This document shows, one piece after another, positions 7,924 to 64,000 of a stretch of 64,000 nucleotides of DNA. The stretch comes from Nymphaea colorata. Taxonomy: Eukaryota > Streptophyta > Magnoliopsida > Nymphaeales > Nymphaeaceae. The position numbers were made by a program, and so were the translations under genes. Where the stretch lies: assembly GCF_008831285.2 (NCBI RefSeq), contig NC_045139.1:28182808-28246807 (forward strand). The letters run 5' to 3'. The notes beneath the pieces are model-generated. The model did not search any database and was not told the origin of the DNA. It saw nothing but the letters and a program-made list of their open reading frames with translations. The stretch's first letter is position 1. Each line of letters opens with the position of its first letter.

Positions 7924-8000
7924 ATTTAAACTTAGAGGATGGACGTGTAAGGGTAGGAACTTAGGGCAGACAACTTTGGAAATTAGGGCATGATAGATCT

Positions 8001-8408
8001 AGGAATTAGTGCAGACAACAACAGTTTTGGGATTAGGGCAGGAAAATAGAAAGTAGGGCAAAAATCAGAGATATTGGGCTTAGGCTGAAAAATAGAGATT
8101 AGGGCAGAAAAATAGAGATTAGGGGAGAAATCAGAGATTCTTACCAGACTAATCTCATTGGCAAAACCTTTCTCTGATACCACATAAGATTTTGATGTAT
8201 ATATAGGAATTAGTGCAGACGACAACAGTTTTGGGATTAGGGCAGGAAAATAGAAAGTAGGGCAAAAATCAGAGATATTGGGCTGAGGCTGAAAAATAGA
8301 GGTTAGGGCAGAAAAATAGAGATTAGGGGAGAAATCAGAGATTCTTACCAGACTAATCTCATTGGCAAAACCTTCCTCTCATACCACATAAGATTTTGAT
8401 CTATATCA
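8001..8408 (-). repeat. Tandem 204-bp duplication of the copia leader, two primer-binding sites
   Basis: 8001-8204 and 8205-8408 are near-identical direct copies. Each includes leader sequence, a Met-tRNA primer-binding site, and the last ~20 bp of the LTR. The site at 8172-8182 reads TGGTATCAGAG on the minus strand. The second, at 8376-8386, reads TGGTATGAGAG with one mismatch. The outer copy is the one next to the LTR. Confidence 0.8.
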
Positions 8409-12138: not shown

Positions 12139-13025
12139 ATGAAATAAAGGATCTTTTCATTTTTACATGCTCCCGGTTCACTTGAGCATAGCCTCTCGTC
12201 TCTAAGAAGAGATTGAGTGTTATCTCCTTTGGCCATGGGGAGATGAAGATGAGAAGAAAATACAAACAATATCATATTTAATAGAAAATATGATTTAAAC
12301 ATGAAATGAAAGATCATCTCATCTTTCCATGCTCCCGGTGCACTCGAGCATAGCCTCTTGTCTCTGAAATAGAGATTGAGTGCTATCTCCTTTGGCCATG
12401 AGAATATGAAGATGAGAAGAACATGAAAAATGAAAGATAATATCATATTTAATAAAATAAAAAGCATGATTTAAGCTTGAAATGAAAGATCATCTCATCT
12501 TTCCATGCTCCTGATGCACTCGAGCATAGCATCTTGTCTCTAAAATAGAGATTGAGTGCTATCTCCTTTGGTCATGGGGAGATGAAGATGAGAAGAACAT
12601 GGAAAATGAAGACAATATCATATTTAATAAAATAGAAAGCATGATTTAAGCTTGAAATGAAAGATCATCTCATCTTTCCATACTCCCGGTGCACTCGAGC
12701 GTAGCCTCTTGTCTCTAAAATAGAGATTGAGTGCTATCTCCTTTGGCCATCGGGAGATGAAGATGATAACAAAATAAAAAGAACAACAGACAAACTATAT
12801 TCAAGAAAGGGAAATAACAATAATAACAAGAACATATTAATGAAGAGAAAGAACAACAACAACAACAACACTATAATCAAGAAAAGAAAGAATATGATTT
12901 AATCATGAAATGGAAGATCATCTCATCTTCTTATGCTCCCAGTGCACTCGAGCATAGCCTCTTGACTCTAAAATAGAGAGAGAGAGAACTATCTCCTTTG
13001 GCCATGGGAAGATGAAAATGAGAGG
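12139..13025. repeat. Tandem array, five copies of a ~175-bp unit
   Basis: Units start at about 12139, 12301, 12478, 12653 and 12905. Each has AAATGAAAGATCATCTCATC, then a conserved core CACTCGAGCATAGCCTCTTG, then ATCTCCTTTGGCCATGGG, then an AT-rich tail. Spacing is 162, 177, 175 and 252 bp. The longer last gap holds an extra CAA/AAC-rich insert. No coding potential. Confidence 0.85.
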
Positions 13026-30479: not shown

Positions 30480-32125
30480 AACCTGGTGCATGTAATTGCC
30501 CACACTACGCGGGTATGTGGCTCCACCACGTATGCTATTCTAGATGTAAGTTGCTACTTAGATGCGATTTTAGAGACCGACATAGCACACAATTGATAAA
30601 CAACAGCCTTTCTTCAACGTCTCACCCAGTTTGGTGCAATTTTATAAGAAAATAGTTCAATTTTTTGCACTATAAGCAATGGTTTAAACTTATAAAATAA
30701 TTTACAACAACATGTAGAAAATAATTATCTTAACTCTAATCAAAAGATCTTTTAAACAGCGAGATTCTCCTATTCATGTTTCCTTCAGCCAATTTTTTTG
30801 TAATTTTTTAAAGGTGTGATTCAGACAACAAAATGTGAGAAAGTGTGTCAAACATGTTATATCTAATATCCACTCAAAAATCCGAGCAGGTTATTTGATG
30901 TGGCCCTTCACAAAGGACCATGTATTATGAATTAAATGATTAAAAATGCTTCTGCAGGATTTCTGCTGCCTAAACGGAAGACTCCTCTTGTAAAGATGAA
31001 AGTGGAATCTAAAAATTTTTCCCTTATAAAGTTACAAAAATAACAAGTGGGATGTGCCTTCTTTCTTATGTGGACGGCATAACATAGAAAGCGTTCTCGC
31101 CTAAGATAAAAGAACGTGCCTACGAAGCTAAAAATCAAAGACAAAAATTTATTCTTTCTATTGAAATGACAGATTTGTCTATTTCATTTGCAAAGAGATA
31201 AAACATGCCCTTCCTCTAGAAAAGATCAGAATATGCTACCCTGCAAACAGCTTGTCGCGATCTGGTTTGGGGATTCAATTCATTTTCTAGTAATTTCAGT
31301 TTCAGCTTCAAAAGATTTAAAACAAAGAACAACCAACTACTTAACAACATTTTTAAGTTTCCTAAAATTCTTCACAACTTTAAATAGAAAACTAAAATTT
31401 CTAAAGAGGGGTGTTACAACCCACCATTTTAAGGCACATAGGTTGGTGTATGTGGGAACCAAAGTCCATTTCAAAGTGGGCCATTACACAACTGGCCTTA
31501 TAAAGTGTGTGAGAAATGTGAAATTTGTATCAAATTAGGAAAGTTATTTGTGATTTTTTTTTATAAATTTTGTTTTTTATTGAGTAAAACAGTTTTTCAA
31601 GGTTAATTTTTAGCATTTTCATAAATGAAATTTGTGAAAAAATCTATTCTACACATTTTCCATTGAGAAAATTTGCGTTAATGAGTAAAATTAACTTAGA
31701 AAAACGTTACCTATGATTTTTTTGGTGAAAATTCGTTTTTTATTAAGAAAAAGATAGTTTTATAAAATATGTTTTTAATAGTTATCATTAATGAAATGTG
31801 TGTGATTCTTTTCCGTGAATTTTTTTTGTTAAAGGTAAGATAGTGTATTAAAATATGTTAATACTTTTCATTAGCAAAATGTGTGTGAAGAAAGAAGTAT
31901 AATTTTTACCTTTTCTATTAAGGAAAATTGTGTGCATTATACATTGTACAACAGGTTCCCTCTGGCCCACCGTCGGGGACAGCTAGAGAGCATGTCCCAT
32001 CGGAGGGGCGGCGTCTCATGCTCCCCTCTCTAATAGGCTAGCTAATGTGGAATAAACTTTTAAATATTAAACAGCTATGGGCAAATACATAAAAATTTGA
32101 GTATTTGCCGTTACACGAACAATAA
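30480..32125. other. Non-coding, AT-rich
   Basis: No supported gene. 31540-31920 looks like three or four very diverged copies of a ~95-bp AT-rich unit (blocks ATTTTTTTATAAATT, TTTTTAATAGTTATCATTAA, GAAATGTGTGTGA). A short GC-rich patch lies at 31950-32025. Confidence 0.4.
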
Positions 32126-35100
32126 TGGTAGGACCTAACTCCGGTATAAGCCACAGCCCAGTCCTAGAGTCGATCCTACACCCAAGATCCTCGTAGAGGG
32201 TCCACACGGGTCTAAAGACGCCTAAAGATTGAACCAACACAACTCAAAGAGGAAACTAAGGCTAGACTTAGACCAAACACACTCCTTGTAGACGGATCTT
32301 AGGCTTTAGGCCACCGAAAAACTACAGGAATACTGGACAAATGCGGAAGCGATTCAAAACTATGCAAGGAAAATAGCAAATCTAACTAGTCTAAATGAAG
32401 TACCTCCCCAAGGCTTGCTCGGGGTTCATTTGATGAATCTTCTGGAATTCTTTGATGATCTGCTGTAGGTGCTGTTGAGGATGAATTCCAGACGTCAGGT
32501 TGTAGCTGAGAAAATCGGGACACCAAGGTGGAAGGTGCTGCAACGCCAAGTAAGACGCCAAGTTGGAGAAGATCGCTGGTAAAGTCTTTGATGTCTTCTC
32601 TTCAACTCTGTTGCTGCTGCTGGTTTTGACGGAGCTGATACAAATGCTGCTGCTCCGGGTGTGGCAGTAGGCTCTAGATATAGCTGAGAGAGAGCCTCTT
32701 AGCTCAGCCCACCTGGCTGAGTGCCGTGGTAGCACACGGGATCCGGTTGCTTGGTGATAGCAACCTCAATTCGCTTGGGCGAGTGGATGAAATGCCCAAG
32801 GGTGCACACCAAATGCTGTAGTCGTGGCTGGGGATGGGTGGATTCAGCTTGGTCTTAGCTGAGGAATTACCTAACTACAGTCAATAGAGGAAAGCTCGGC
32901 CGTAGAGCTTGGTAATGATCCTAAGTGTGGCTGGCTTAGGGCCGGTTAGGAGCGATAGGGGCTTGGACGGCTTCGGCTACGGTGTAAGGGAAGATGATCT
33001 AAGGGTGTGAGGTCTGGAATGAGGTGGCTTAAGACAAGGGAATGTGGGATGTTGATTAGGAACTGGTGGTTAGGTTCAAGGATGATTGAACGAGTGGCTT
33101 GGGTTTAAATGAGAGAGCTAATGAGGAACTAAGAAGGGTTAGGGATCACGTGAGTGAGTTTGACGTGGGATCAAAAGGTGGACTCCTACACTTGAACCTA
33201 GGATAATCCTCTAGATCTAAGGCTGAAAATTCAAAGGTGGTAAGTGAGATGTGATGTGGCTGGGATCTAGGGATGGTTAATAATTGAATCACCTAAACTA
33301 AAGAGCAAATCCCTCCAAATGTGGGCACTAGTGGCACCGGCTCCTCCAATGTAGTCAAATGTGGCGAGGTGGCGCCTTGTGGAATGATGATTCCAAATGT
33401 GGGGATTCTCTTCCAAATCACGTGCAAATCAAGGGTCAGATCTTCTCCTAAGGATCTGGATGAAGGGCTAGGAGAGACTTAGATGGGTAAGGATGAAGCT
33501 CGTACCACTTTTTGAAGCTAGAATGTAGGAGTTTCCCCTTAATTCTCGCCTAGAAAAACTCCTCTCCATGCGATATCTCCTTGGAGTACTTTTGGACGGA
33601 CTTACCCTTGAAAATGATGGTCCCACTTCGTGGCAAGGAAGGGCACTTTGGTCCTTGGGTGATGATGACCAGAATCCCCCAAATGTGGCCGGCATTATGG
33701 CAGAGGTCGCCGGAAAACCAGAAGTTCCCGATGACTTGGTGCTTGCTATCGCCTAGGCCGTTCTTCGCGAAACCAATGTGTATCTTCTTCTTTCTTTGCG
33801 TGGAATCACCTTATATGGTCCATTCCCATGTCCAAGATGGTCTCACCGTGATTTCTTTCGGATGAGATTCTGATTTTGCCGGCGAAATTCCAAAGATGGA
33901 CCGCGGATGAAAACTAGAATCGATCGACTCTTCTTGTGCCATTTCCTTGAGTGATTTCTCAACTAGGAAAGCCTCAATGCCTAGGATCTTCTAAGACACG
34001 TAAAACTTAGTTTAAATCATGTTTCAACCGTGGAAAAGAAGGGAATCTCGGCTGTGACTCGAGACTTCTCCTCTTCTTGTAAGTCAAACCTTGGATCAAA
34101 CCAAACCAACGTAGTTGCTTAGCTTTCACCTTAGGAATCCAAGAACTAACCTTGTATGAGGAAACCGTGGGTTTGCTGTCCTTCCTTGGATGAAGACGCA
34201 GCCTCCTTGTTCAACTTAGGCCTCTAATATCTCTGATGTAGCAGAGATATTGCACCCAAGACGTGGCTGGGTAGATGCGAAGATGAAGACGATGATAACT
34301 CCTAGGGCCGTGGCTCTCCCAAGAGAAAGCCCTCACCTTCTTCTTCAACGAGAATTGATGTAAATGAAAGAGAGGGGAGATAGTGAGGAGTTGGGAAGGA
34401 GAGGAGAGGAAGACGTGAGGGGGAAGGGGAAGTAGAGGGCCAGCATGCTGGTCTTGGGAGAAGAGATTGGAGGGAACGTGAGAGAGAGAGAGAGAGAGAG
34501 AGAGACACGAGAAGAGAGAGAGAGAAGTGAGGAGAGAGAGAAAGCAAAGAAGCAAATGACCTTGATTTCCCAAAATTCCATCCATTTACACATGAATCAA
34601 AACCTTATATACATGAGTACATAAATCTGGTTCCCATGCATGGAACCAGCCCAAATCCAAATCCAGAACATGCTAAAGCAAAACGGATCTAAGGCACAAC
34701 CCGCCTTGGTAAGTTTGAATCCAAAACCGAATTGGCGCAAACTCAAATAAAGCAAATCAAGAAGTGAAAAACGGCTAAGTCCTAGCTAGACGCCCCTTGA
34801 GCCTTGTGAGCTCAAGGTGGGGACCTCGTCCGGGTTGCCGCCCAAACTTCGGACTTGACACATCCCTTAACCTCATTGAGCTGAGCTCAATTCAGCCAAG
34901 AGACCTCCCTAGACTCGTCCTAGACCGAGTCTAGAGACTTGGGTTTCGATACGACTCAAGAATGGACCATGGCCTATACCAGAGAAGTCCTATGGATCTA
35001 GTATCCTAACTCGCGGATTCCCCCAATTGCTGGTCTTCACCTAGTTCATTCATGTCCTAGAGCCGTTGCATATCCTCCCGCACCTCCCACTGCATTTGCT

Positions 35101-35194
35101 CTAGGCTCGAAGTTTAATTCCATTGAGCCGTGATCTCTCACTGTGGCCGTGCCTTTGGCCTTGGTTAGGCCTACTCGGACTAAGGCTCGTATCA
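32126..35194 (-). repeat. 3' LTR of the large element
   Basis: On the minus strand it starts TGATACGAGCCTTAGTCC at 35194 and ends GGTCCTACCA at 32126. It includes a (GA)n run near 34480-34505 that is shorter than in the 5' LTR, a TATA box (about 34613-34622), and the 114-codon ORF at 32735-32391. Confidence 0.93.
32391..32735 (-). CDS. 114-codon ORF inside the 3' LTR (copy A)
   Basis: Begins MLPRHSARWAELRG and ends NPEQALGRYFI. It is on the same strand as the element and intact in both LTRs. No family recognised. The two copies differ at four bases, three silent and one Ser/Cys change. Confidence 0.35.
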   Translation of the reverse strand: MLPRHSARWAELRGSLSAISRAYCHTRSSSICISSVKTSSSNRVEEKTSKTLPAIFSNLASYLALQHLPPWCPDFLSYNLTSGIHPQQHLQQIIKEFQKIHQMNPEQALGRYFI

Positions 35195-35211
35195 GATCCA
35201 CCCTCCTTAAA
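35195..35211 (-). other. Polypurine tract of the large element
   Basis: AAGGAGGGTGGATC on the minus strand, directly before the 3' LTR start TGATACG. Confidence 0.75.
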
Positions 35212-35232
35212 TCGAGCTTGTCCCCAAGCTCG

Positions 35233-37863
35233 TTATGAACTTGTTTCTTGGTGGCTCTGACGCACGCAGTCATCTTTCACCTTGTGTTTCCTCTCTGGTC
35301 CATAGTCTCTGGGTAACACCTTCACTGAGTTCCTAAGATGGAGGAAACATCTTCTTGGGCCTCTTGAATAAACCTTGAACATGGCCCTTTTAACTCTGAG
35401 TTTAGCTATGGTCAATGTGTCTGGACCATAGTCTTGAGGTAACTGTCCAATTCGCTTCATTGGTTGCCCAAGCAACCTTTCATCATTCTGGATCTCATTC
35501 CTTGACATGGCTTTACCACGGTCATGTGGTTGCCACTTTCTACCACCATGTTGTAGTGGTTTTTGCACTTGTTTAGGACTATAATCCCTTGGGAGTTGCC
35601 CTATAGCCCTCTTTTGCAGCCCTTGTAGCTGCTCAATAGTGCCCTCCTGATGTGCGAGGGCCTTCCCTCTGTCGTGGGCTTGCCATAGGCGCCCACCTGC
35701 TTGTAGTACTTGTTGGTTGATGATGTAGTCTTTCTGTTTACAATTACTCTGTACTGCCCATTGCACCTCAGTTGCGCTCATGTCGTTGGAGTCAATTGAT
35801 GTTGGTGACTCCGACTTGTAATCCTCACATGAACTCGAGGGGTTCCACATCTCTTCATTGCAATTTGGTGACTCTGAGTACTGGAATGCTCTCCATCTTT
35901 TTGGGTAGAGTTTTTCATTCTTATCTCTGTGAATCACCTCTTCATTTTGTTGTTGTCCACCCTCCTTAGGATGTATCATCTGTTGTTGTAATAGAGAATG
36001 TGTGGACAAAGATCTTTCCTTGTTCTCATACGATTCAATGTGCCCACTCTTAGCCATTGGGCATTCACGATTCACTCGTGGATCTTCTTGAGAAGCCTTA
36101 TATTGGTTGAATGATGGTCTTGGCTCCAAAGTAATAGTGTGATCATCATCAGAACTGCACAAGAAATCATCTTCAAACTCAGAGAAGAATCCTGCTAATT
36201 CCTCTTGCACTTCCTCTTGCCACTTTTGGATGCAACGAAGCTTAGCATGTTGATCACTTTCACTCATCTCAATAGGGGCTAACCACGTATCCTCGCTCTG
36301 TGGATGATTCTGACAAGAGGGTATTCCTTCAAGTTTCTCCACCCGTGGTCCGATACCTTGGTCTTGGTGTGAGCACGTCATGTGGAAAGCTAACTCTTGG
36401 GTTGCTTGTAGTTGTAACTCTTCCACAATCTGTGAGCAGTCAGTTGAATCCGCTCCACCCTCCTTATGATCTGCCTTACCTTCTATTGTGGAGGGATATG
36501 ATGGATGATCCTCGCTTCGCTGGCTGGACTCTTCATCTCCTTCTATTTTCATGGGATCATTAGAGTCCATGCTGCTTGCCTTTTCTACATCATTCCTTTG
36601 ATCTTCAAGGTTAAGATCTTCTGGCATTTGACAACGGATTAGCTCCACCTTGTCTTCTGGCTGTATGATCTCAAGAGGTTGAAGCTCGCTTGATTCTTCC
36701 ACTTCCATCATGTTGGGTGAAGCTAGAGCTGTACACACTAAAGATTCTTCTTTGTACGTATCTAATGCTTGGTTGGGACTAGACGCGTGCATTGAGTTTG
36801 TAGAGATTGAAGCTCTTTCTTCATGTAATCCTAAAGAATCTTCACTTGGAAGTGTCTCTTCAATAGATTCGCACTCTTGACACTTGCTTTCTATTTCAGC
36901 CAATAACTCATTGGTAGTCCATGTCTTCAATGATTCGCCATCACTTGAGTTGTTGGATGGCTCCTCAACTGTAGCTTGATCATGAACACCCTTGCCCTTG
37001 AGGCTATTGTTCGGCACTTCACATTTGATTGTCTCTACCGCTTGGTGCATTTCATCTCTCTTGTTCCTGCTTACTTCGTCCCTTTTCTTAGGTTGATAAT
37101 TGGTCTGAGGGACCTCAGATTTTTGAGTAAGGCCTTTAGTTGAGTAGGCCTTGCGGTAGGCTTTAGTGTTGTCAGTTTTCTTTGGAGGTGGTTGTGACAC
37201 CGCACTCATGATGCCTTGGTTCTTGCTTCCGTTGCCTTTGCTCATGTGCTCCGTGCGAGGTGGCGGAGTAGCTGGTCCGAGTAGCTCTTTGCTCTTCATG
37301 TTGGTCGGAACCATGCCCTTGGACGTGTTGCTCCTTAACTCCACGTGAGGCTTCTCTTGTTTCACGTTGTCCAATATCTCATCCATCTTTGAGAGCGCTT
37401 GTCGTATCATCTCTTCAATGTTAGGAGATGACTTTCCTGGGTTACTATTTCCAGGTTTCCCTACTTGTTGGACGGGTTTGGGTGCTGGGATTTCTTCCAA
37501 CACAAACTTATGACTCATGTCTCCTATTTGTATCACTTCTCCTGGATAAACTTGTAAAAGCTCACCCAGGTTGACTACTCTTTCTGCAACCCTAAGTCGA
37601 CCCACTAAGGTCCTATTGGTGATCCTAATGTTACAGGTCCCCTTGTCCACTTCAATCACACAATGATAACCCATTACACTGACATCTCGTAGGATGATGT
37701 CGCATCTCGGGTTTTGCCCAATCAAGAAACTGATGAACTGTGGGCCGTAACTCCAATCTTCTCTGTGAACTAAAATCTTCTCTTCCACGAGTTTTCCGTA
37801 AGAATAGGTGCTAAACACTAAATCAACATCTAAACTTCTGGGATACGCACCTTCTTCCATCAT
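35233..37863 (-). CDS. 876-residue retroelement ORF with N-terminal FHA-like domain
   Basis: The only long ORF of the element and fully open. Residues about 30-124 resemble a forkhead-associated domain: FLIGQNPRCDIILRDVSV (about 46-63), GYHCVIEVDKG (about 65-75), ITNRTLVGRLRV, then PGEVIQIGDMSHKFVLEE (about 107-124). FHA domains bind phosphothreonine. Here the usual Gly-Arg is Gly-Gln and the Ser-Arg-x-His loop is changed, so phosphopeptide binding is doubtful. Residues about 130-700 are hydrophilic and acidic or polar, probably disordered. The C-terminus (about 723-856) holds a repeated module, GGRLWQAHDRGKA...IGQLPRDYSP then GGRKWQPHDRGKA...IGQLPQDYGP about 50 residues later, with a third LPRDYGP. 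There is no zinc knuckle, protease or RT. It may be a divergent structural (gag-like) protein or a captured host domain. The function is unknown. The start is the first Met after a 0.7-kb leader. Confidence 0.75.
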   Translation of the reverse strand: MMEEGAYPRSLDVDLVFSTYSYGKLVEEKILVHREDWSYGPQFISFLIGQNPRCDIILRDVSVMGYHCVIEVDKGTCNIRITNRTLVGRLRVAERVVNLGELLQVYPGEVIQIGDMSHKFVLEEIPAPKPVQQVGKPGNSNPGKSSPNIEEMIRQALSKMDEILDNVKQEKPHVELRSNTSKGMVPTNMKSKELLGPATPPPRTEHMSKGNGSKNQGIMSAVSQPPPKKTDNTKAYRKAYSTKGLTQKSEVPQTNYQPKKRDEVSRNKRDEMHQAVETIKCEVPNNSLKGKGVHDQATVEEPSNNSSDGESLKTWTTNELLAEIESKCQECESIEETLPSEDSLGLHEERASISTNSMHASSPNQALDTYKEESLVCTALASPNMMEVEESSELQPLEIIQPEDKVELIRCQMPEDLNLEDQRNDVEKASSMDSNDPMKIEGDEESSQRSEDHPSYPSTIEGKADHKEGGADSTDCSQIVEELQLQATQELAFHMTCSHQDQGIGPRVEKLEGIPSCQNHPQSEDTWLAPIEMSESDQHAKLRCIQKWQEEVQEELAGFFSEFEDDFLCSSDDDHTITLEPRPSFNQYKASQEDPRVNRECPMAKSGHIESYENKERSLSTHSLLQQQMIHPKEGGQQQNEEVIHRDKNEKLYPKRWRAFQYSESPNCNEEMWNPSSSCEDYKSESPTSIDSNDMSATEVQWAVQSNCKQKDYIINQQVLQAGGRLWQAHDRGKALAHQEGTIEQLQGLQKRAIGQLPRDYSPKQVQKPLQHGGRKWQPHDRGKAMSRNEIQNDERLLGQPMKRIGQLPQDYGPDTLTIAKLRVKRAMFKVYSRGPRRCFLHLRNSVKVLPRDYGPERKHKVKDDCVRQSHQETSS

Positions 37864-38424
37864 TCTTGCCTTCTCTTAAATCAAAACAAATGCTTAAAGC
37901 TTTCTAAGCTATCTATTTCAAACATCAAACTGAACTACTAAAAGCTGAAAACCATGACACTTGTAAATTCTGTAACTCTCTAACTCGATGTCCAAAAATC
38001 ACGAAACTTGGTAGCAAAATACTAGACACGATAAGGAATCCAACGCCACCAAGATCAAGCTCTAACTCTGCTCCAGGAAAGCACTCGTTCTTCTGAAAGT
38101 CACGCCTGGGCTTGCTTTTCAACCGCACAGGACTCCCCCAGTGATAGGGGTCCACTCAAAAAATCATAACTTCTCACCCGTAACTCAACAAAATCTGAAA
38201 TTTGGACTGAAGATTCCTGAGACGTAGGCGCTTCCAACGAGCCTAACCTTGACCCATTCCGACGCCGGAGCTGACAGCGCCGGCCACCGGAATCCGGCGT
38301 AGTTTCTGGTTTTTCAGAAACTGAAAAAAATGCAGGCTGAAGAGGATGAGTTTCTGCTATGCTACCATCAAACCAAACTAACACTGCTGGAATCTGAAAA
38401 CTGAGTGCGGTGGCCTCTCAAGAT

Positions 38425-38437
38425 GGCTCTGATACCA
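38425..38437 (-). other. Second PBS-like site in the leader
   Basis: It has the same 13-mer TGGTATCAGAGCC and is preceded by CTATCA plus GTT, just as the real site is preceded by CTACCA plus ATT. It looks like the LTR end and primer site of a related element left inside the leader. Confidence 0.7.
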
Positions 38438-38593
38438 AACTGATAGGTTCGGTATCAGCCGGATAAGTTTGGAACTCTCCTTTCCAACTTTCACCCGCTT
38501 TTACCAAAATCGATCTTTCTTGCACTTATGAGCAACATAAACTCTAGAATTTGAATTCACAAGATGTAAACAAGCAACGGAATCCTCCACGTT

Positions 38594-38606
38594 GGCTCTG
38601 ATACCA
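38594..38606 (-). other. Primer-binding site (initiator Met-tRNA)
   Basis: TGGTATCAGAGCC on the minus strand, three bases inside the 5' LTR end. A second identical 13-mer lies 169 bp further in (38425-38437). Confidence 0.9.
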
Positions 38607-38874
38607 AATTGGTAGGACCTAACTCCGGTATAGGCGACAGCCCAGTCCTAGAGTCGATCCTACACCCAAGATCCTCGTAGAGGGTCCACACGGGTCTAAA
38701 GACGCCTAAAGATTGAACCAACACAACTCAAAGAGGAAACTAAGGCTAGACTCAGACCAAACACACTCCTTGTAGCCGGATCTTAGGCTCTAGGGCACCG
38801 AAAAACTACAGGAATACTGGACAAATGCGGAAGCGATTCAAAACTATGCAAGGAAAATAGCAAATCTAACTAGT

Positions 38875-39219
38875 CTAAATGAAGTACCTCCCCAAGGCTT
38901 GCTCGGGGTTCATTTGATGAATCTTCTGGAATTCTTTGATGATCTGCTGTAGGTGCTGTTGAGGATGAATTCCAGACGTCAGGTTGTAGCTGAGAAAATC
39001 GGGACACCAAGGTGGAAGGTGCTGCAACGCCAAGTAAGACGCCAAGTTGGAGAAGATCGCTGGTAAAGTCTTTGATGTCTTCTCTTCAACTCGGTTGCTG
39101 CTGCTGGTTTTGACGGAGCTGATACAAATGCTGCAGCTCCGGGTGTGGCAGTAAGCTCTAGATATAGCTGACAGAGAGCCTCTTAGCTCAGCCCACCTGG
39201 CTGAGTGCCGTGGTAGCAC
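38875..39219 (-). CDS. 114-codon ORF inside the 5' LTR (copy B)
   Basis: The partner of 32391-32735. Downstream of the LTR TATA box it would lie in the R-U5 part of the genomic RNA, ahead of the main ORF. It could be an upstream ORF or a chance one. Confidence 0.35.
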   Translation of the reverse strand: MLPRHSARWAELRGSLSAISRAYCHTRSCSICISSVKTSSSNRVEEKTSKTLPAIFSNLASYLALQHLPPWCPDFLSYNLTSGIHPQQHLQQIIKEFQKIHQMNPEQALGRYFI

Positions 39220-40967
39220 ACGGGATCCGGTTGCTTGGTGATAGCAACCTCAATTCGCTTGGGCGAGTGGATGAAATGCCCAAGGGTGCACACCAAATGC
39301 TGTAGTCGTAGCTGGGGATGGGTGGATGCAGCTTGGTCTTAGCTGAGGAATTACCTAACTACAGTCAATAGAGGAAAGCTCGGCCGTAGAGCTTGGTAAT
39401 GATCCTAAGTGTGGCTGGCTTAGGGCCGGTTAGGAGCGATAGGGGCTTGGACGGCTTCGGCTACGGTGTAAGGGAAGATGATCTAAGGGTGTGAGGTCTG
39501 GAATGAGGTGGCTTAAGACAAGGGAATGTGGGATGTTGATTAGGAACTGGTGGTTAGGTTCAAGGATGATTGAACGAGTGGCTTGGGTTTAAATGAGAGA
39601 GCTAATGAGGAACTAAGGAGGGTTAGGGATCACGTGAGTGAGTTTGACGTGGGATCAAAAGGTGGACTCCTACACTTGAACCTATGATAATCCTCTAGAT
39701 CTAAGGCTGAAAATTCAAAGGTGGTAAGTGGGATGTGATGTGGCTGGGATCTAGGGATGGTTAATGATTGAATCACCTAAACTAAAGAGCAAATCCCTCC
39801 AAATGTGGGCACTAGTGGCGCCGGCTCCTCCAATGTAGTCAAATGTGGCGAGGTGGCGCCTTGTGGAATGATGATTCCAAATGTGGGGATTCTCTTCCAA
39901 ATCACGTGCAAATCAAGGGTCAGATCTTCTCCTAAGGATCTGGATGAAGGGCTAGGAGAGACTTAGATGGGTAAGGATGAAGCTCGTACCACTTTTTGAA
40001 GCTAGAATGTAGGAGTTTCCCCTTAATTCTCGCCTAGAAAATCTCCTCTCCATGCGATATCTCCTTGGAGTACTTTTGGACGGACTTACCCTTGGAAATG
40101 ATGGTCCCACTTCGTGGCAAGGAAGGGCACTTTGGTCCTTGGGTGATGATGACCAGAATCCCCCAAATGTGGCCGGAATTATGGCAGAGGTCGCCGGAAA
40201 ACCAGAAGTTCCCGGTGACTTGGTGCTTGCTATCACCTAGGCCGTTCTTCGCGAAACCAATGTGTATCTTCTTCTTTCTTTGCGTGGAATCACCTTATAT
40301 GGTCCATTCCCATGTCCAAGATGGTCTCACCGTGATTTCTTTCGGATGAGATTCTGATTTTGCCGGCGAAATTCCAGAGATGGACCGCGGATGAAAACTA
40401 GAATCGATCGACTCTTCTTGTGCCGTTTCCTTGAGTGATTTCTCAACTAGGAAAGCCTCAATGCCTAGGATCTTCTAAGACACGTAAAACTTAGTTTAAA
40501 TCAAGTTTCAACCGTGGAAAAGAAGGGAATCTCGGCTGTGACTCGAGACTTCTCCTCTTCTTGTAAGTCAAACCTTAGATCAAACCAAACCAACGTAGTT
40601 GCTTAGCTTTCACCTTAGGAATCCAAGAACTAACCTTGTATGAGGAAACCGTGGGTTTGCTGTCCTTCCTTGGATGAAGACGCAGCCTCCTTGTTCAACT
40701 TAGGCCTCTAATATCTCTGATGTAGCAGAGATATTGCACCCAAGACGTGGCTGGGTAGATGCGAAGATGAAGACGATGATAACTCCTAGGGCCATGGCTC
40801 ACCCAAGAGAAAGCCCTCACCTTCTTCTTCAACGAGAATTGATGTAAATGAAAGAGAGGGGAGATAGTGAGGAGTTGGGAAGGAGAGGAGAGGAAGACGT
40901 GAGGGGGAAGGGGAAGGGGAAGTAGAGGGCCAGCAATGTGGTCTTGGGAGAAGAGATTGGAGGGAAC

Positions 40968-41008
<41 letters not shown>

Positions 41009-41102
41009 GAGAAGAGAGAGAGAGAAGTGAGGAGAGAGAGAGAGCAAAGAAGCAAATGACCTTGATTTCCCAAAATTCCATCCGTTTACACATGAATCAA
41101 AA

Positions 41103-41112
41103 CCTTATATAC
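41103..41112 (-). promoter_or_regulatory. TATA box in the 5' LTR
   Basis: GTATATAAGG on the minus strand, about 580 bp inside the LTR. It implies transcription starting near 41075, so U3 is about 0.6 kb and the R-U5 part about 2.4 kb. Confidence 0.6.
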
Positions 41113-41694
41113 ATGAGTACATAAATCTGGTTCCCATGCATGGAACCAGCCCAAATCCAAATCCAGAACATGCTAAAGCAAAACGGATCTAAGGCACAAC
41201 CCGCCTTGGTAAGTTTGAATCCAAAACCGAATTGGCGCAAACTCAAATAAAGCAAATCAAGAAGTGAAAAACGGCTAAGTCCTAGCTAGACGCCCCTTGA
41301 GCCTTGTGAGCTCAAGGTGGGGACCTCGTCCGGGTTGCCGCCCAAACTTCGGACTTGACACATCCCTTAACCTCATTGAGCTGAGCTCAATTCAGCCAAG
41401 AGACCTCCCTAGACTCGTCCTAGACCGACTCTAGAGACTTGGGTTTCGATACGACTCAAGAATGGACCATGGCCTATACCAGAGAAGCCCTATGGATCTA
41501 GTATCCTAACTCGCGGATTCCCCCAATTGCTGGTCTTCACCTAGTTCATTCATGTCCTAGAGCCGTTGCATATCCTCCCGCACCTCCCACTGCATTTGCT
41601 CTAGGCTCGAAGTTTAATTCCATTGAACCATGATCTCTCACTGTGGCCGTGCCTTTGGCCTTGGTTCGGCCTACTCGGACTAAGGCTCGTATCA

Positions 41695-43690
41695 AACAAT
41701 GACGGGAGATTACAATTGTTTTGATCGGACAGATACCCTTGTGACTCCGAACGTACCTCTGTCCTTCTCGCCATGTATCTCTCTCTCTCTCTCAAAAATT
41801 GTAACTTGTCCCAATAAATTTTACTGCATCATACAATTGACTGCATTTTGTAAATAGGATAGTGTTTCTCTTTTTAAATCGCACATGAAGGTTGAACTGT
41901 CCTATCAGATTTGTTGGGGACGTCTTGTGTGACCTACCGTGAAGGGCGGGAGAGAGAGGACCGTGTCACTAAGACCACCCTTGGTGACACGGTGGTATAA
42001 TCCTAGGAATGTTAATATATTTTATTTGAATCGAATATTTGATTTTTAAAAAAATAAATAAAAAATTAATATCTGATTACGAGATCAAATTAGGTTTGAA
42101 TTTAAAAAATGACATTCGATTGGATTTAGATTCATATTTTAGTATACACATATTCTAGTATACATAAATAACCAACTGGATTTAGATATGGATTGAAATC
42201 AGATTTATTTTTAAACAAAAAATTATATACCTAACTCTCTCATTTTGAAAGAGGCCAAATTTGGTTCGAAACTTGAATTTAGATTAAGATATAAATGTAA
42301 AAATTGGATTTCGATTGGATTTAGATTCATATATGACTTTTCTTTGTTTTCATTCGGATCCGAATTTAAATCCAAAATCTGTAAATTTTCAAAAAAAAGG
42401 ATATAACTAAGGATATATTTGATTTGAATATGATCTGTTCAACAAAGGTGGCTGCAATGAGCATACAGACCATATACAAGCTTCAACAATTTGAAGTTGC
42501 AAGTGATTTTCCTTGCTCAGCCTAGCCTCAGAGCTCATTAGTCCTCCTAATCCATTAGGAAGAAGGGGAATAACGTGAGGTTTTCCCTGGCTCTCCTTGC
42601 ACCTATCCCTAGTTGCAAAGGAACCTTTTTAAGAAAGTTTTAATATCTTTCAGTATGAAAAACCATCCAAGAAAATTCCAATTTCTCCTTTCCTTGAGTG
42701 TCGCTTTAATGGGCGAACATATTCTCAATTTCAATTTATCAGAATGGACACTTCACCTATTAATTTCTTGCTTTCTACAACAAAGGATAATATTTTGAGG
42801 CTAGACTACTATGAATACCTGGGGACGTCATTACTGAAATCGTGCACGTATTTTTGACCAAGGAATTGGTTTTTTAAGATAGAAGATTCTAACATTTGTG
42901 TCATGGATCTGCACCCTCTGCAAAGACCGTACCTGTGTATGCGGTTGAGCAATATGAGTGTTCTGCGTGCTGGATCACAGAATGCAAGACTTTACGTGTG
43001 CGTGTGTTTTGTGCGTGCAATTTGTTTGTCCGCATATAAAGGTTTAAATTCTATGATCCAGCATGGAGCAGCACAATACGTAGTTTCATCTTTGCAAAAT
43101 CCAATTGTATACAATTAATCATATATATCCAAAAATTTAAGAAAGAGATGATGCTTCAGAATATCAATCCACCATACTACAACATTATCTACTTTATGAA
43201 AAGGAAGAGAAGAATCTCTCATGAATAGTTCAAAGACTAGACGTACGCCTTATTCTAGAAAAAGGTGCTCTGCAAGGGTGAGCGCAAGTGTCTCAGGAGC
43301 GTCGCTTAAAGTGTATACCTTAGAGGCTGCCTAGCATTAGCATTAAGAACAAGATGTGAATGGATGGAGAATCTGTTACAAAATTGAAATACATTCATGA
43401 TGAAACACTTGAATATTAACATGTTATTCCTAATGCCAAATGAACGCTTAAAGTCGGAGCCATTTTTTTATAGTTTTTTTTTTCTTAAAAAAAAAGTCAA
43501 AAGAAATTTTCCGAATGGAGGGTTTTCCCCACCTGACGTTCCAGTTTCATTGTTACAGTTTCATTGTTACAGTTAACCTATTATTAGTACTGTTGACCAC
43601 TTACCTCTTTTCATTCATTCATTATAAGAGGCTTGGAGCTGTGGCGCTGGCCCTCTCTCTCTCTCTCTCTCTTGGAAAAGAGATAGAGAG
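41695..43690. other. Non-coding, AT-rich
   Basis: No gene is supported. 42000-42430 is very AT-rich with recurring GGATTTAGATTCATAT words (near 42120 and 42305), a pattern of old plant repeats. A hairpin lies at 41960-41993 and a (CT)n run at 43650-43672. Confidence 0.45.
41960..41993. other. Perfect 10-bp inverted repeat (hairpin)
   Basis: ACCGTGTCAC and GTGACACGGT are separated by 14 bases. It is GC-rich in an AT-rich setting and could form a stable stem. No T-run follows, and a function is not evident. Confidence 0.6.
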
Positions 43691-61719: not shown

Positions 61720-64000
61720 GGCAGTGGAGTCTAGCAAGCAACAACAACCATGATTGTTTTCTATGGAAGAAGGTATGTTGAATGCTAGTTCAACTGAATG
61801 TAGCTCTCATTGCCATGGGACGTTAAATGGTGACATGTAGCAACGATTTTGCCTCTCAATCAGTTAACAATGAGACTAATTTCTTAGAATGCAACAGGAT
61901 TATGTCGAGTTATAGCTAGGTACGATTTACATCTTATCATCAAGCACCAAAATTAAAGCTTGGGGACATTCCACGAGGAATTTTGCTATCATCACAAACT
62001 CCACATTTTATATATATGTACGCAGAATTGTCATGTGTTGGGACCCAACTACAAGATGGCTAATAATTGTTCTTTTACCAACATAGGATACCTATCCAAT
62101 GCACCTGAAAACGGACATGGATGGATATAGTAATTTTTTGGGTGTATCTTGCATCCACAATATGTTATAAGGGCTCAAGAATTTGTTGATTTGAGTATAT
62201 GCCTCTCACAAGTTAATGGGCCGGTTTGTTTGCTTGGAGATTTTAATGCTATGATGGCCGCCAAATAGGTATAGTTGCTCTACTTGCAGGGCTTTCTTTC
62301 GTGATATAGGTCTGTCAGAGATTGAAGATGCTCTTTCTAGTTTCACCTGGACTAATAATAGGAACAGAAGTGAACTTACACAATACAAACTTGATTGGGC
62401 TATGATAAATAATTTTTGGACTCATTTGCTATATGCACCGCCTCACCTAAAAGTTCTCCCTTGATCTTGACAATAACCATTCTCGAGCCCCAATATAGAT
62501 TCTATGGGAAAGGCCTCTTCAAAATTTTCAATTGCTGGACTCTCAGATATGGTTGTCTGGAAGTTATTTGTATGGTGTAGGCTATTGGCTTATATGGCTA
62601 TTGAATGATTAAACTATTTATGAAACTTGAGACCACCAGAAGTAGCTTGTAAATTGGAACTCTGCGGTGTTTGACAATACCATACAACACATTGCCAGGC
62701 TCCAGGCAAATCTTGATGGTAGATTTGATGGTATCCACAAGAACCCTCTTACTATGAGATCTCAAGTTGACAAAGGAAATTGCTAATTCCCAAAGAATTG
62801 CAACGGAAGAAGACTATCTATTGTGGAAACAAAAAACCAGGATTGATTGACATTAGGACGGCAATAGGAATACTAGTTTTTTCTATGTGTGTGTGTAAAT
62901 GTGAGACAAAAAGGAACAATGACCATTTCCGTTATCAGTGGCGGCCATATAATCAACCTTTATGAGTGTTACATTTTGCTTGTGTTGTTTTTTTTCGAGG
63001 ATTTGAAAACACAGATTGCTTTGATGGCATGATGATGGATAGATGCACCTGATGGTCCTATTGTCATTGTTCACGAGGGTCAGATGTTGAATAATCCTGT
63101 AAGAGACGATGAATAAAAAAAGGCAGTGTTCGAATCCAATAGTGACAAAGCCCCGATGCCAGATGGTTTCCCAGCTGACTTCTTCAAAACCTATTGGGAG
63201 GTGGTTGGTAAGGATGTGTGTCATGCAGTTAAAAATTCTTTGAAGACAAGTTGGCTTGTGAAGAAGATTAATAGAACTCATATGGTTATTATATTTAAAT
63301 TCTTGGGTGCAAAAAACATCAAGGACTTTAGGCCGATTGCATTATGTAACAATTGTTTACAAGTTTATCATTAAAATCATGGTTAACTATATACCAAACA
63401 ACTTAGCGCAAATTCTAGGCCAAGAACAAGAGGTTTTCTTCCCATCTCTTCTCATCCGTGACTAAATCTTCTTTGCACATGAGTATGTCAATAGCATTAA
63501 TCACCATGCACATAAATATGTCAACATCACTAATCAGCACAACAAAATCATGGTTAACTATATACCAAACAACTTAGCGCAAATTCTACGCCAAGAACAA
63601 GAGGTTTTCTTCCCATCTCGTCTCATCCGTGAGTAAATCTTCTTTGCACATGAGTATGTCAATAGCATTAATCACCATGCACATAAATATGTCAACATCA
63701 CTAATCAGCACAACAAGATTTCTTTTCTGCTGAAACTTGACCTGTCGAAAGCTTATGATAGGATCAATTTTGACTTTCTTAGGAGATCTGTGGATTGCCT
63801 ATGCTTCCATGTACTTTGGAATGAAAGAGTTTTGACTTGTGTGTATATTGTCTCTTATATGGTCATCATTAATGGGAGAGAAGGAAGTTTTTTTTTTTAT
63901 GCCAGTCGTGGTCTAAAACATACATATTCTCTCTCCCCTTATCTCTTTTTTACTTGTGATGAGAATGTCCATTCAGAACTTGAAATATGAGCAAAGAAAG
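61720..64000 (+). mobile_element. LINE (L1-type), inactive, cut by the window edge
   Basis: Plus-strand order: endonuclease (62210-62460: GPVCLLGDFNAMM, then SSFTWTNNRNRSELTQYKLDWAMINNFW), linker, then RT (63126 onward: DKAPMPDGFPADFFKTYW, NIKDFRPIALCN, LKLDLSKAYDRINFDFL, RGLKHTYSLSPYLF). Stops and frameshifts are frequent. The catalytic YxDD box would lie beyond the right edge. It is related to, but clearly a different copy from, the minus-strand LINE at 17-21 kb. Confidence 0.85.
63373..63714 (+). repeat. Tandem 171-bp duplication inside the LINE RT
   Basis: 63373-63543 and 63544-63714 are near-identical. The unit is 57 codons, so the RT frame is kept. It starts AAAATCATGGTTAACTATAT and ends AATCAGCACAAC. 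Confidence 0.9.

Follow-up and report, generated by a model that had tools for sequence, protein, structure and literature searches.

FHA-encoding LTR elements of Nymphaea colorata as candidate satellites of Ty3/gypsy retroelements

How does a retroelement bounded by long terminal repeats (LTRs) spread if its only gene encodes an FHA-like protein, and what does this protein contribute? The question is raised by an element located in a stretch of 64,000 nucleotides from contig NC_045139.1 of Nymphaea colorata (hereafter the window, meaning the whole of this stretch). With a probability of roughly 60%, this element is a member of a diversified group of helper-dependent Ty3/gypsy satellites, in which gag-pol would be replaced by a single gene for an accessory factor of their own, a protein of about 840-900 residues that is not Gag.

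The element and its relatives

The element occupies positions 32126-41694 on the minus strand of the window, in the order 5' LTR, leader, single open reading frame (ORF), polypurine tract (PPT) and 3' LTR (Table 1). Both LTRs, read on this strand, run from TGATACG to CCTACCA (TG...CA ends). Their alignment contains 38 mismatches over 3069 sites, a divergence of 1.24%, in agreement with an earlier note made from the sequence alone, which had described a young element with LTRs ~1.2% different. Assuming the grass rate of 1.3e-8 per site per year (the rate in Nymphaea may differ), the insertion presumably took place about half a million years ago. The primer-binding site (PBS), the PPT and the 3-kb LTRs mentioned in the same note were all located, the first two as strings far above chance in 64 kb. 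The PBS string TTTGGTATCAGAGCC, which we take to be of the initiator-Met type, has two matches, 169 bp apart, versus 0 expected by shuffling; the PPT 11-mer AAGGAGGGTGG has three versus 0.01 expected, all in the element and on the same strand. The window copy is flanked by ATTGTT directly upstream and TTATTGTT downstream, and its target-site duplication is not clean. Perfect 5-bp duplications surround four of the six copies of the same lineage (F1) whose flanks were read, out of nine known, and the duplication in C7 has one mismatch. By Pfam at E values up to 1, the 876-codon ORF contains no gag, protease, reverse transcriptase or integrase domain, and apart from FHA its matches are all sub-threshold, so that the single uninterrupted frame indeed stands where gag-pol would be expected. 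No Rfam model reached its gathering score over 32000-41800.

Relatives were sought in the 407.8-Mb genome (783 contigs). The protein search scored the best candidates only, and the copy counts are lower bounds. It yielded at least five full-length copies of F1 at 98-100% identity, at least four broken ones and further families of FHA elements at about 30% protein identity to the window ORF. At least five lineages (F1-F5) exist, with 22-49% protein identity between them. A DNA search with the LTR revealed that the F1 copies are flanked by paired LTRs and that solitary LTRs occur elsewhere. LTR pairs are also present in F2 elements (the C563 pair differs at 1 of 2091 comparable sites, the rest being unread) and, 7.0-7.5 kb apart, in F3 and F4 copies. 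At C357 and C3:29.84 Mb, the upstream match begins at the LTR without a PPT, as expected of a 5' LTR; C404, where it begins four bases into the query, is a less clear case. The PBS is preceded by CCTAACAAT in 4 of 4 copies read (one F3, two F4 and one F5), and the order of ORF, leader, PBS, PPT and LTR is the same in at least one copy of every lineage. The ORF length, read directly, is 842-896 residues in 16 of the 20 ORFs retained, which are the longest ones.

A 34-base signature of the 3' end, consisting of the inverted-repeat string and the PPT, is common to the FHA elements and to the gag-pol elements described below as helpers; it has 144 exact matches in the genome versus 0 for a reversed control. 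At least 35 of these 144 sites lie in C3:28.48-30.87 Mb, among the matches listed. FHA elements and helpers crowd near one end of C3 and in the small contigs C16, C30, C69, C96, C246, C398 and C404, perhaps a heterochromatic or centromeric niche. In viral contigs, no match to six peptide patterns was obtained.

The protein and the selection acting on it

The FHA fold pattern that the earlier note had recognized at the N-terminus was recovered by sequence profiles. PF00498 (cut-off 20.7 bits) is exceeded by F1 (26.2 bits), F2_C563 (21.1), all three F4 proteins scanned (26.1, 26.1 and 25.2) and F5 (24.2). A profile of seven N-termini, compared with solved chains, gave 26 distinct matches at E up to 10, of which the FHA domain of Ki-67 is the best (1e-4). 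Only the two best chains pass E 0.001; most of the 26 carry names that we take to be those of FHA-domain proteins. The phosphothreonine-binding residues, whose positions are taken from the FHA family in general, are changed as the earlier note had claimed: in all seven aligned sequences, covering the five lineages, the Arg of GR is replaced by Gln or Ser (GQ/GS) and the Ser by Met, Gln or Lys. The His is kept in six of the seven.

Behind the FHA domain, the middle of the protein is long, acidic and variable. Two strongly conserved blocks follow, with the family consensus LYPxRWRAxQ..xSPNC and RGPRxxFxxxRNSxxxLPRDYGP, the second within a basic C-terminus. A C-terminal module, HDRGKA...GQLPxDYxP (residues about 724-815 of the window ORF), is tandemly duplicated in F1 and single in the aligned representatives of the other lineages. 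In F2-F4, the ORF continues through the PPT in the helper pol frame. No NCBIfam match was obtained for two family proteins, and Pfam found nothing above threshold in three isolated C-termini (SLED was sub-threshold, 14.1 bits).

The ratio of non-synonymous to synonymous rates (dN/dS) was determined by the Nei-Gojobori method on natural copies, for 19 pairs of those possible. The set is that of the 20 longest ORFs and is biased against stops; L010, L012-L021, L026, L030 and L032-L038 were omitted as interrupted or partial. Ratios of 0.40-0.47 were found in six diverged F4 pairs (z -4.4 to -5.7), of 0.42 and 0.43 for F2_C563 and F2_C273 against F2_C6 (z -3.5), and of 0.53, 0.61 and 0.66 within F3 (z -3.0, -2.4 and -1.6). 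The same alignments in two wrong frames gave 0.77-1.14 for five pairs. Because the diverged members of F2-F4 reach only 0.40-0.66 in frame against these values out of frame, the FHA protein is under purifying selection in the wider family (F2, F3, F4). Third positions show a clear excess of changes for F2 and F4 and a slight one for F3 (40, 51 and 54 at positions 1, 2 and 3). Between lineages, the ratio is 0.38 for F3/F5, 0.42 for F3/F4 and 0.23 for F1/F2, values made unreliable by a synonymous divergence (dS) above 1. Some nearly identical pairs are uninformative: F2_C563/C273 (0.44, z -1.2), F4_C220/C171 (0.27 on four changes) and F2_C563/C3 (two changes, both non-synonymous). The gag-pol of two helpers (L051/L052) has a dN/dS of 0.13; the FHA protein is therefore held less tightly than gag-pol. 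The suggestion that an intact frame means a protein that matters for mobility thus stands in part: between diverged members of F2, F3 and F4 the ratio is not near 1, and the F1 pair is silent on the matter.

Candidate helpers and the role of the protein

For two lineages, gag-pol elements were found that agree with the FHA elements in LTR ends and primer site, as a dependence on a helper would imply: L039 is matched in its termini to F1, and L051 and L052 to F2. The LTRs of L039 (C1) are 100% identical over 2107 bp, and its gag, protease, reverse transcriptase, RNase H and integrase zinc-binding domains lie above the Pfam cut-offs, accompanied by an integrase SH3-like domain. The gag-pol frames of L051 and L052 are long, show some breaks and contain gag, protease, reverse transcriptase, RNase H and the integrase zinc-binding domain. 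In all three elements, the integrase core stays under its Pfam cut-off. The LTR pair of L051 is 99.3% identical over 1965 bp; given these near-identical LTRs, L039 and L051 have therefore been recently mobile. F1 resembles L039 over 174 bp (82.8%) at the LTR end and PBS, over 53 bp (90.6%) at the PPT and LTR start, and over 166 bp (70.5%) inside the LTR; the crossed pair F1 and L051 gives 102 bp at 71.6% and 60 bp at 85.0%. F2 resembles L051 over 124 bp (81.5%) at the LTR end and PBS and 97 bp (81.4%) at the PPT and LTR start, and in the crossed pair with L039 only 32 and 47 bp are found. Judging from these lineage-matched LTR ends, PBS flanks and PPTs, the Ty3/gypsy gag-pol elements are likely the helpers of F1 and F2. 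A helper candidate for F4, at C3:28956900-28965600, proved to be a further FHA element of F4.

The RNA of the FHA elements would thus be copied and integrated by the enzymes of Ty3/gypsy gag-pol elements, for which a chromovirus type is suspected; for F1 and F2, what matches at the LTR termini, primer site and PPT is the sequence, and mobilisation is inferred from it. The protein would serve the element's own spread, as its purifying selection suggests. Its most likely role is that of an accessory adaptor: the basic C-terminus would bind the element RNA, and the FHA fold, with its phosphothreonine site gone, would act as a protein-docking surface that brings this RNA into the helper Gag particle or the pre-integration complex.

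Several observations weigh against this proposal. In L039 and L052, gag-pol is divided between two frames, and these copies may be broken. A chromodomain is seen in L039 only, at 19.0 bits versus a cut-off of 25.1, and none in the scanned frames of L051 and L052. No helper was found for F3-F5, and the one candidate fetched (L067) is itself an FHA element. On the side of the protein, the Pfam FHA domain went undetected in the one F3 protein scanned, and F2_C6 scores 20.4, just under the cut-off. A full-length profile matched four solved chains, all in the FHA part, with nothing outside it. Kinship with Gag was rejected, as hhalign of an eight-protein family alignment against two helper Gags gave a probability of 0.1%. 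The sole F1 pair (F1_window/F1_C10), nearly identical, has an uninformative dN/dS of 0.89, as does the nearly identical F4_C30/C404 pair with 1.0. The search for stops, which the earlier note had named as a further sign against a meaningful frame, gave a mixed picture: three of the five full-length F1 copies (L010, L012 and L013) carry one premature stop.

The leading rival to a role in the particle or complex is an action on the host, in which the FHA protein would be an anti-silencing or chromatin-targeting factor aiding the expression or placement of element and helper. Such an action keeps a real, if minor, share of the probability. FHA folds occur in nuclear signalling proteins, and the Ki-67 domain as best solved match, the basic C-terminal block and the purifying selection would all suit a protein of this kind; the absence of the phosphothreonine-binding Arg and Ser from all five lineages makes phospho-dependent host docking unlikely. 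It is rather improbable that the protein is a divergent structural, capsid-like one that builds a particle in place of Gag. This would account for an ORF in the place of gag-pol, where wheat Sabrina NA5 and NA6 are described as encoding capsid-like folds (PMC9744471); against it stand the absence of any Gag, capsid or zinc-knuckle match by Pfam in the family proteins scanned, the hhalign value just given, and a sequence in which acidic, variable stretches take up much of the length, as would not be expected of a capsid. A fragment of a host gene, acquired by transduction and without any role, its frame open merely through the youth of the copies, is very unlikely: the low LTR divergence of the window copy and the F1 ratio of 0.89 would be explained, against which stand the dN/dS of 0.40-0.66 in diverged F2, F3 and F4 members, the third-position excess and the blocks conserved across lineages that are 22-49% identical. 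Lastly, a host FHA gene family flanked by chance LTR insertions on both sides would fit a domain that is a host one (69 Pfam FHA matches in the genome, part of them element-borne) and can practically be dismissed in view of the constant order of ORF, leader, PBS, PPT and LTR in at least one copy per lineage and of the 5-bp duplications that border the elements in F1.

Putative priming signals, ancestry and related systems

The PPT string is repeated inside the ORF. As [A/C]AGGAGGGTGG, it lies in frame: F1, F2 and F3 each have it at two homologous places, F4 and F5 each at one. The other place holds a one-base variant in F5, and in F4 the string there is lost. The helpers L039, L051 and L052 each contain a single copy of it in pol, after the protease by our own reading. 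Among columns whose residue is invariant in the five lineages, the codon is invariant too in 3 of 3 with the third base in the PPT motif, versus 13 of 69 others, a small count that favours a constraint on the DNA of the internal PPTs over one on the peptide motif (KEGG).

A second PBS lies inside an inverted repeat in nine of nine known F1 elements, in the F2 copies L027 and L030 and in the F4 copies C220 and L067. Its stem reads CCAAAC/GTTTGG in F1, CCAAAT/ATTTGG in F2 and CCAAT/ATTGG in F4, the covarying pair adjoining the loop; single mismatches are present in the F1 stems of L009, the window copy, and L014. The window hairpin stretch folds at -28.8 kcal/mol (z -4.7), and L027 and L065 have z values of -2.8 and -2.4. 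Each of the three helpers read has one exact PBS. Ten other F2 loci also have one, followed in seven of them by the sequence that trails the second PBS of L027, as if the two PBS copies had recombined; in the helper L051, however, the sequence at this place begins in a similar way.

F2 and F4 are 79.9% identical over 1247 bp of the leader and FHA-coding part, and beyond it only stretches of 320, 176 and 93 bp align, at 70-75%. Between F3 and F4, dS varies along the ORF: it is 0.31 over the first 130 codons, reaches 2.2 for the middle and comes to 0.86 for the final portion. Both patterns look like an exchange of 5' parts between lineages; single dN/dS values may therefore average segments of different age. 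An exchange of 5' parts has been reported for Quinta (PMC11302176).

Concerning ancestry, some of the genomic FHA matches stem from FHA elements, and the comparison with nearer relatives is limited to the eight best FHA loci, which were fetched. Five of these match the family profile; three, L002, L007 and L003, score 45, 31 and 26 bits and keep the GR; the PBS and PPT strings of the family are absent up to 1.5 kb away from them. L002 sits in a degenerate stretch, 4355-7801 of L068 (C11:10200500-10210499), with an FHA ORF of 49.9 bits, followed by a sub-threshold retropepsin match (17.4 bits, cut-off 20.3) and then by sequence that weakly resembles the PPT/LTR tail of F2 (tblastn E 0.004). L068 suggests that, in older relatives, a protease accompanied an FHA domain of more canonical type, possibly as an FHA-protease ancestor. 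In the surroundings of L003 (L069), tblastn with the 20 family proteins found no match at 0.01. L003 and L007 (C1:12.107 and 12.115 Mb), which both code for FHA with GR, are separated by about 6.8 kb, and L003 has the stretch preceding the FHA domain in common with the family. The capture of a host FHA domain, one of the origins offered in the earlier note, gains from the occurrence of such GR-keeping stretches in this genome; no gene could be named as the donor.

The motif AHDRGK...GQ...LPRDYGP in the C-terminus prompted a comparison with helper integrase. In single BLASTP comparisons, E was 3e-5 for F2/L039, 2e-4 for F2/L051 and 0.005 for F1/L039. Shuffles equalled the real score in 0 of 500 cases for F1 and F2 and in 6, 22 and 16 of 500 for F3, F4 and F5; when shuffling was repeated without the tail, against the C-terminal frame of L039, z was 5.6-7.0 (F1, F2) and 0.4-2.4 (F3-F5). 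By hhalign, the probability is 84% with the shared tail encoded by PPT and LTR and 1.8% without it, a value reached by 6 of 100 column shuffles; it rises to 31% with F4 left out, a post hoc choice. As this profile control failed, an integrase remnant in the C-terminus is not claimed.

A more elaborate version of the satellite proposal is tentative and, as a whole, doubtful. The captured FHA domain would be the base of a replication protein dedicated to the lineage, with the phosphothreonine Arg kept early, the site lost later and the fold turned into a partner-docking module. The satellite would give its helper a trans-acting factor that is not Gag, and the conserved internal PPTs together with the hairpin-masked second PBS would make up a distinct programme of reverse transcription.

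Elsewhere in the window (Table 1), the 335-codon ORF is, as predicted from its domain matches, a piece of a host beta-1,3-glucanase-like gene.

Table 1. Coordinates of the features in the 64-kb window
Feature	Position	Strand	Remarks
5' LTR	38610..41694	-	3085 bp, TGATACG...CCTACCA
PBS string TTTGGTATCAGAGCC	38594..38608	-	one base inside 5' LTR end
Second PBS in hairpin (CTGATACCRAAC / GTTTGGTATCAG)	38426..38459	-	PBS string at 38425-38439; stem covaries between lineages
Non-coding leader, 5' LTR to ORF	37864..38609	-	
876-codon ORF	35233..37863	-	sole ORF of at least 200 codons in the element; uninterrupted
FHA domain, residues 47-114	37522..37725	-	PF00498, 26.2 bits vs cut-off 20.7; phosphothreonine-site Arg, Ser replaced
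Internal PPT copy 1, AAGGAGGGTGG	36455..36465	-	in frame (KEGG)
Internal PPT copy 2, AAGGAGGGTGG	35957..35967	-	in frame (PKEGG)
Conserved block, residues 652-671 (LYPKRWRAFQYSESPNC...)	35851..35910	-	kept in all five lineages
Basic C-terminal conserved block, residues 833-856	35296..35367	-	SRGPRRCF..LRNS...LPRDYGP
Inverted-repeat string AGCTTGGGGACAAGCTC	35214..35230	-	just before PPT; common to helper elements
Terminal PPT AAGGAGGGTGG	35198..35208	-	before 3' LTR
3' LTR	32126..35194	-	3069 bp, aligned against 5' LTR
ORF, 335 codons	25491-26498	-	Glyco_hydro_17 + X8 match
ORF, 147 codons	52271-52714	+	weak cytochrome P450 match, 24.0 bits vs cut-off 22.8
Tandem array	8000-8406		period 204 bp
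Tandem array	12140-12780		period 175 bp
Tandem array	63373-63716		period 171 bp

Non-autonomous LTR elements are mostly regarded as non-coding or Gag-coding parasites. In the present group, selection maintains a long protein other than Gag in several satellite lineages, and helper ends are lineage-matched in F1 and F2. The group offers a system for asking what a satellite gains from a protein of its own, whether the helper is repaid, and in what way a signalling domain can become a retroelement component. The internal PPTs and the second PBS are testable signals for plus- and minus-strand priming.

LARDs have a non-coding interior and TR-GAGs encode Gag; both have long LTRs, are devoid of pol and depend on a helper. 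The FHA element resembles them in its long LTRs, the lack of pol and the proposed helper dependence. Unlike in a LARD, the interior holds an ORF, whose family is under selection, and unlike in a TR-GAG, no Gag domain is found.

Foreign ORFs replacing gag-pol in helper-dependent elements are already known (PMC9744471). Wheat RLG_Sabrina_NA is described there as a non-autonomous Ty3/gypsy element in which unrelated coding sequences take the place of the gag-pro region; an autonomous gypsy family, with RLG_Wilma as the putative helper, is presumed to mobilise it. The FHA elements and their helpers resemble this pair in the replacement of gag-pol by an unrelated ORF and in the common ends, a likeness that does not imply kinship to the wheat sequences. 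The replacement proteins of RLG_Sabrina_NA are described as short, two of them with a capsid-like fold (PMC9744471), whereas the FHA elements have one FHA protein of about 840-900 residues, five lineages and a measured purifying selection. In wheat, RLG_Cereba is likewise presented as an autonomous gypsy helper and RLG_Quinta as its non-autonomous partner, with LTR termini, PBS and PPT in common (PMC11302176). Like the FHA elements, Quinta is a partner with a conserved ORF, which contains a domain of unknown function; its product is given as Gag plus DUF1 (PMC11302176), whereas Gag is undetectable in the FHA elements and the domain is FHA.

The lineage-wide carriage of a conserved protein of unknown function recalls the additional ORFs of plant LTR elements, for example TRP28 of Retand, a conserved extra protein present across its lineage (PMC11963269, PMC7264820). 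Such ORFs are said in these papers to accompany gag-pol usually and to be often antisense; the FHA ORF is sense and alone. The term 'FHA' is absent from the available text of PMC7264820, PMC11963269 and the gene-capture review PMC13317346, as is 'forkhead' from that of PMC7264820. No FHA-coding LTR family appears in the titles and abstract starts of the best literature matches, a scope outside which Repbase and most subscription papers fall.

Finally, multiple PPTs are reported for Sireviruses and internal PPTs for Ty1 and HIV-1 (PMC2829016). The FHA element is similar in having exact extra copies upstream of the terminal PPT. In contrast to those systems, its copies are in frame within an ORF, their places agree between divergent lineages, and one of them recurs in the helper pol after the protease.

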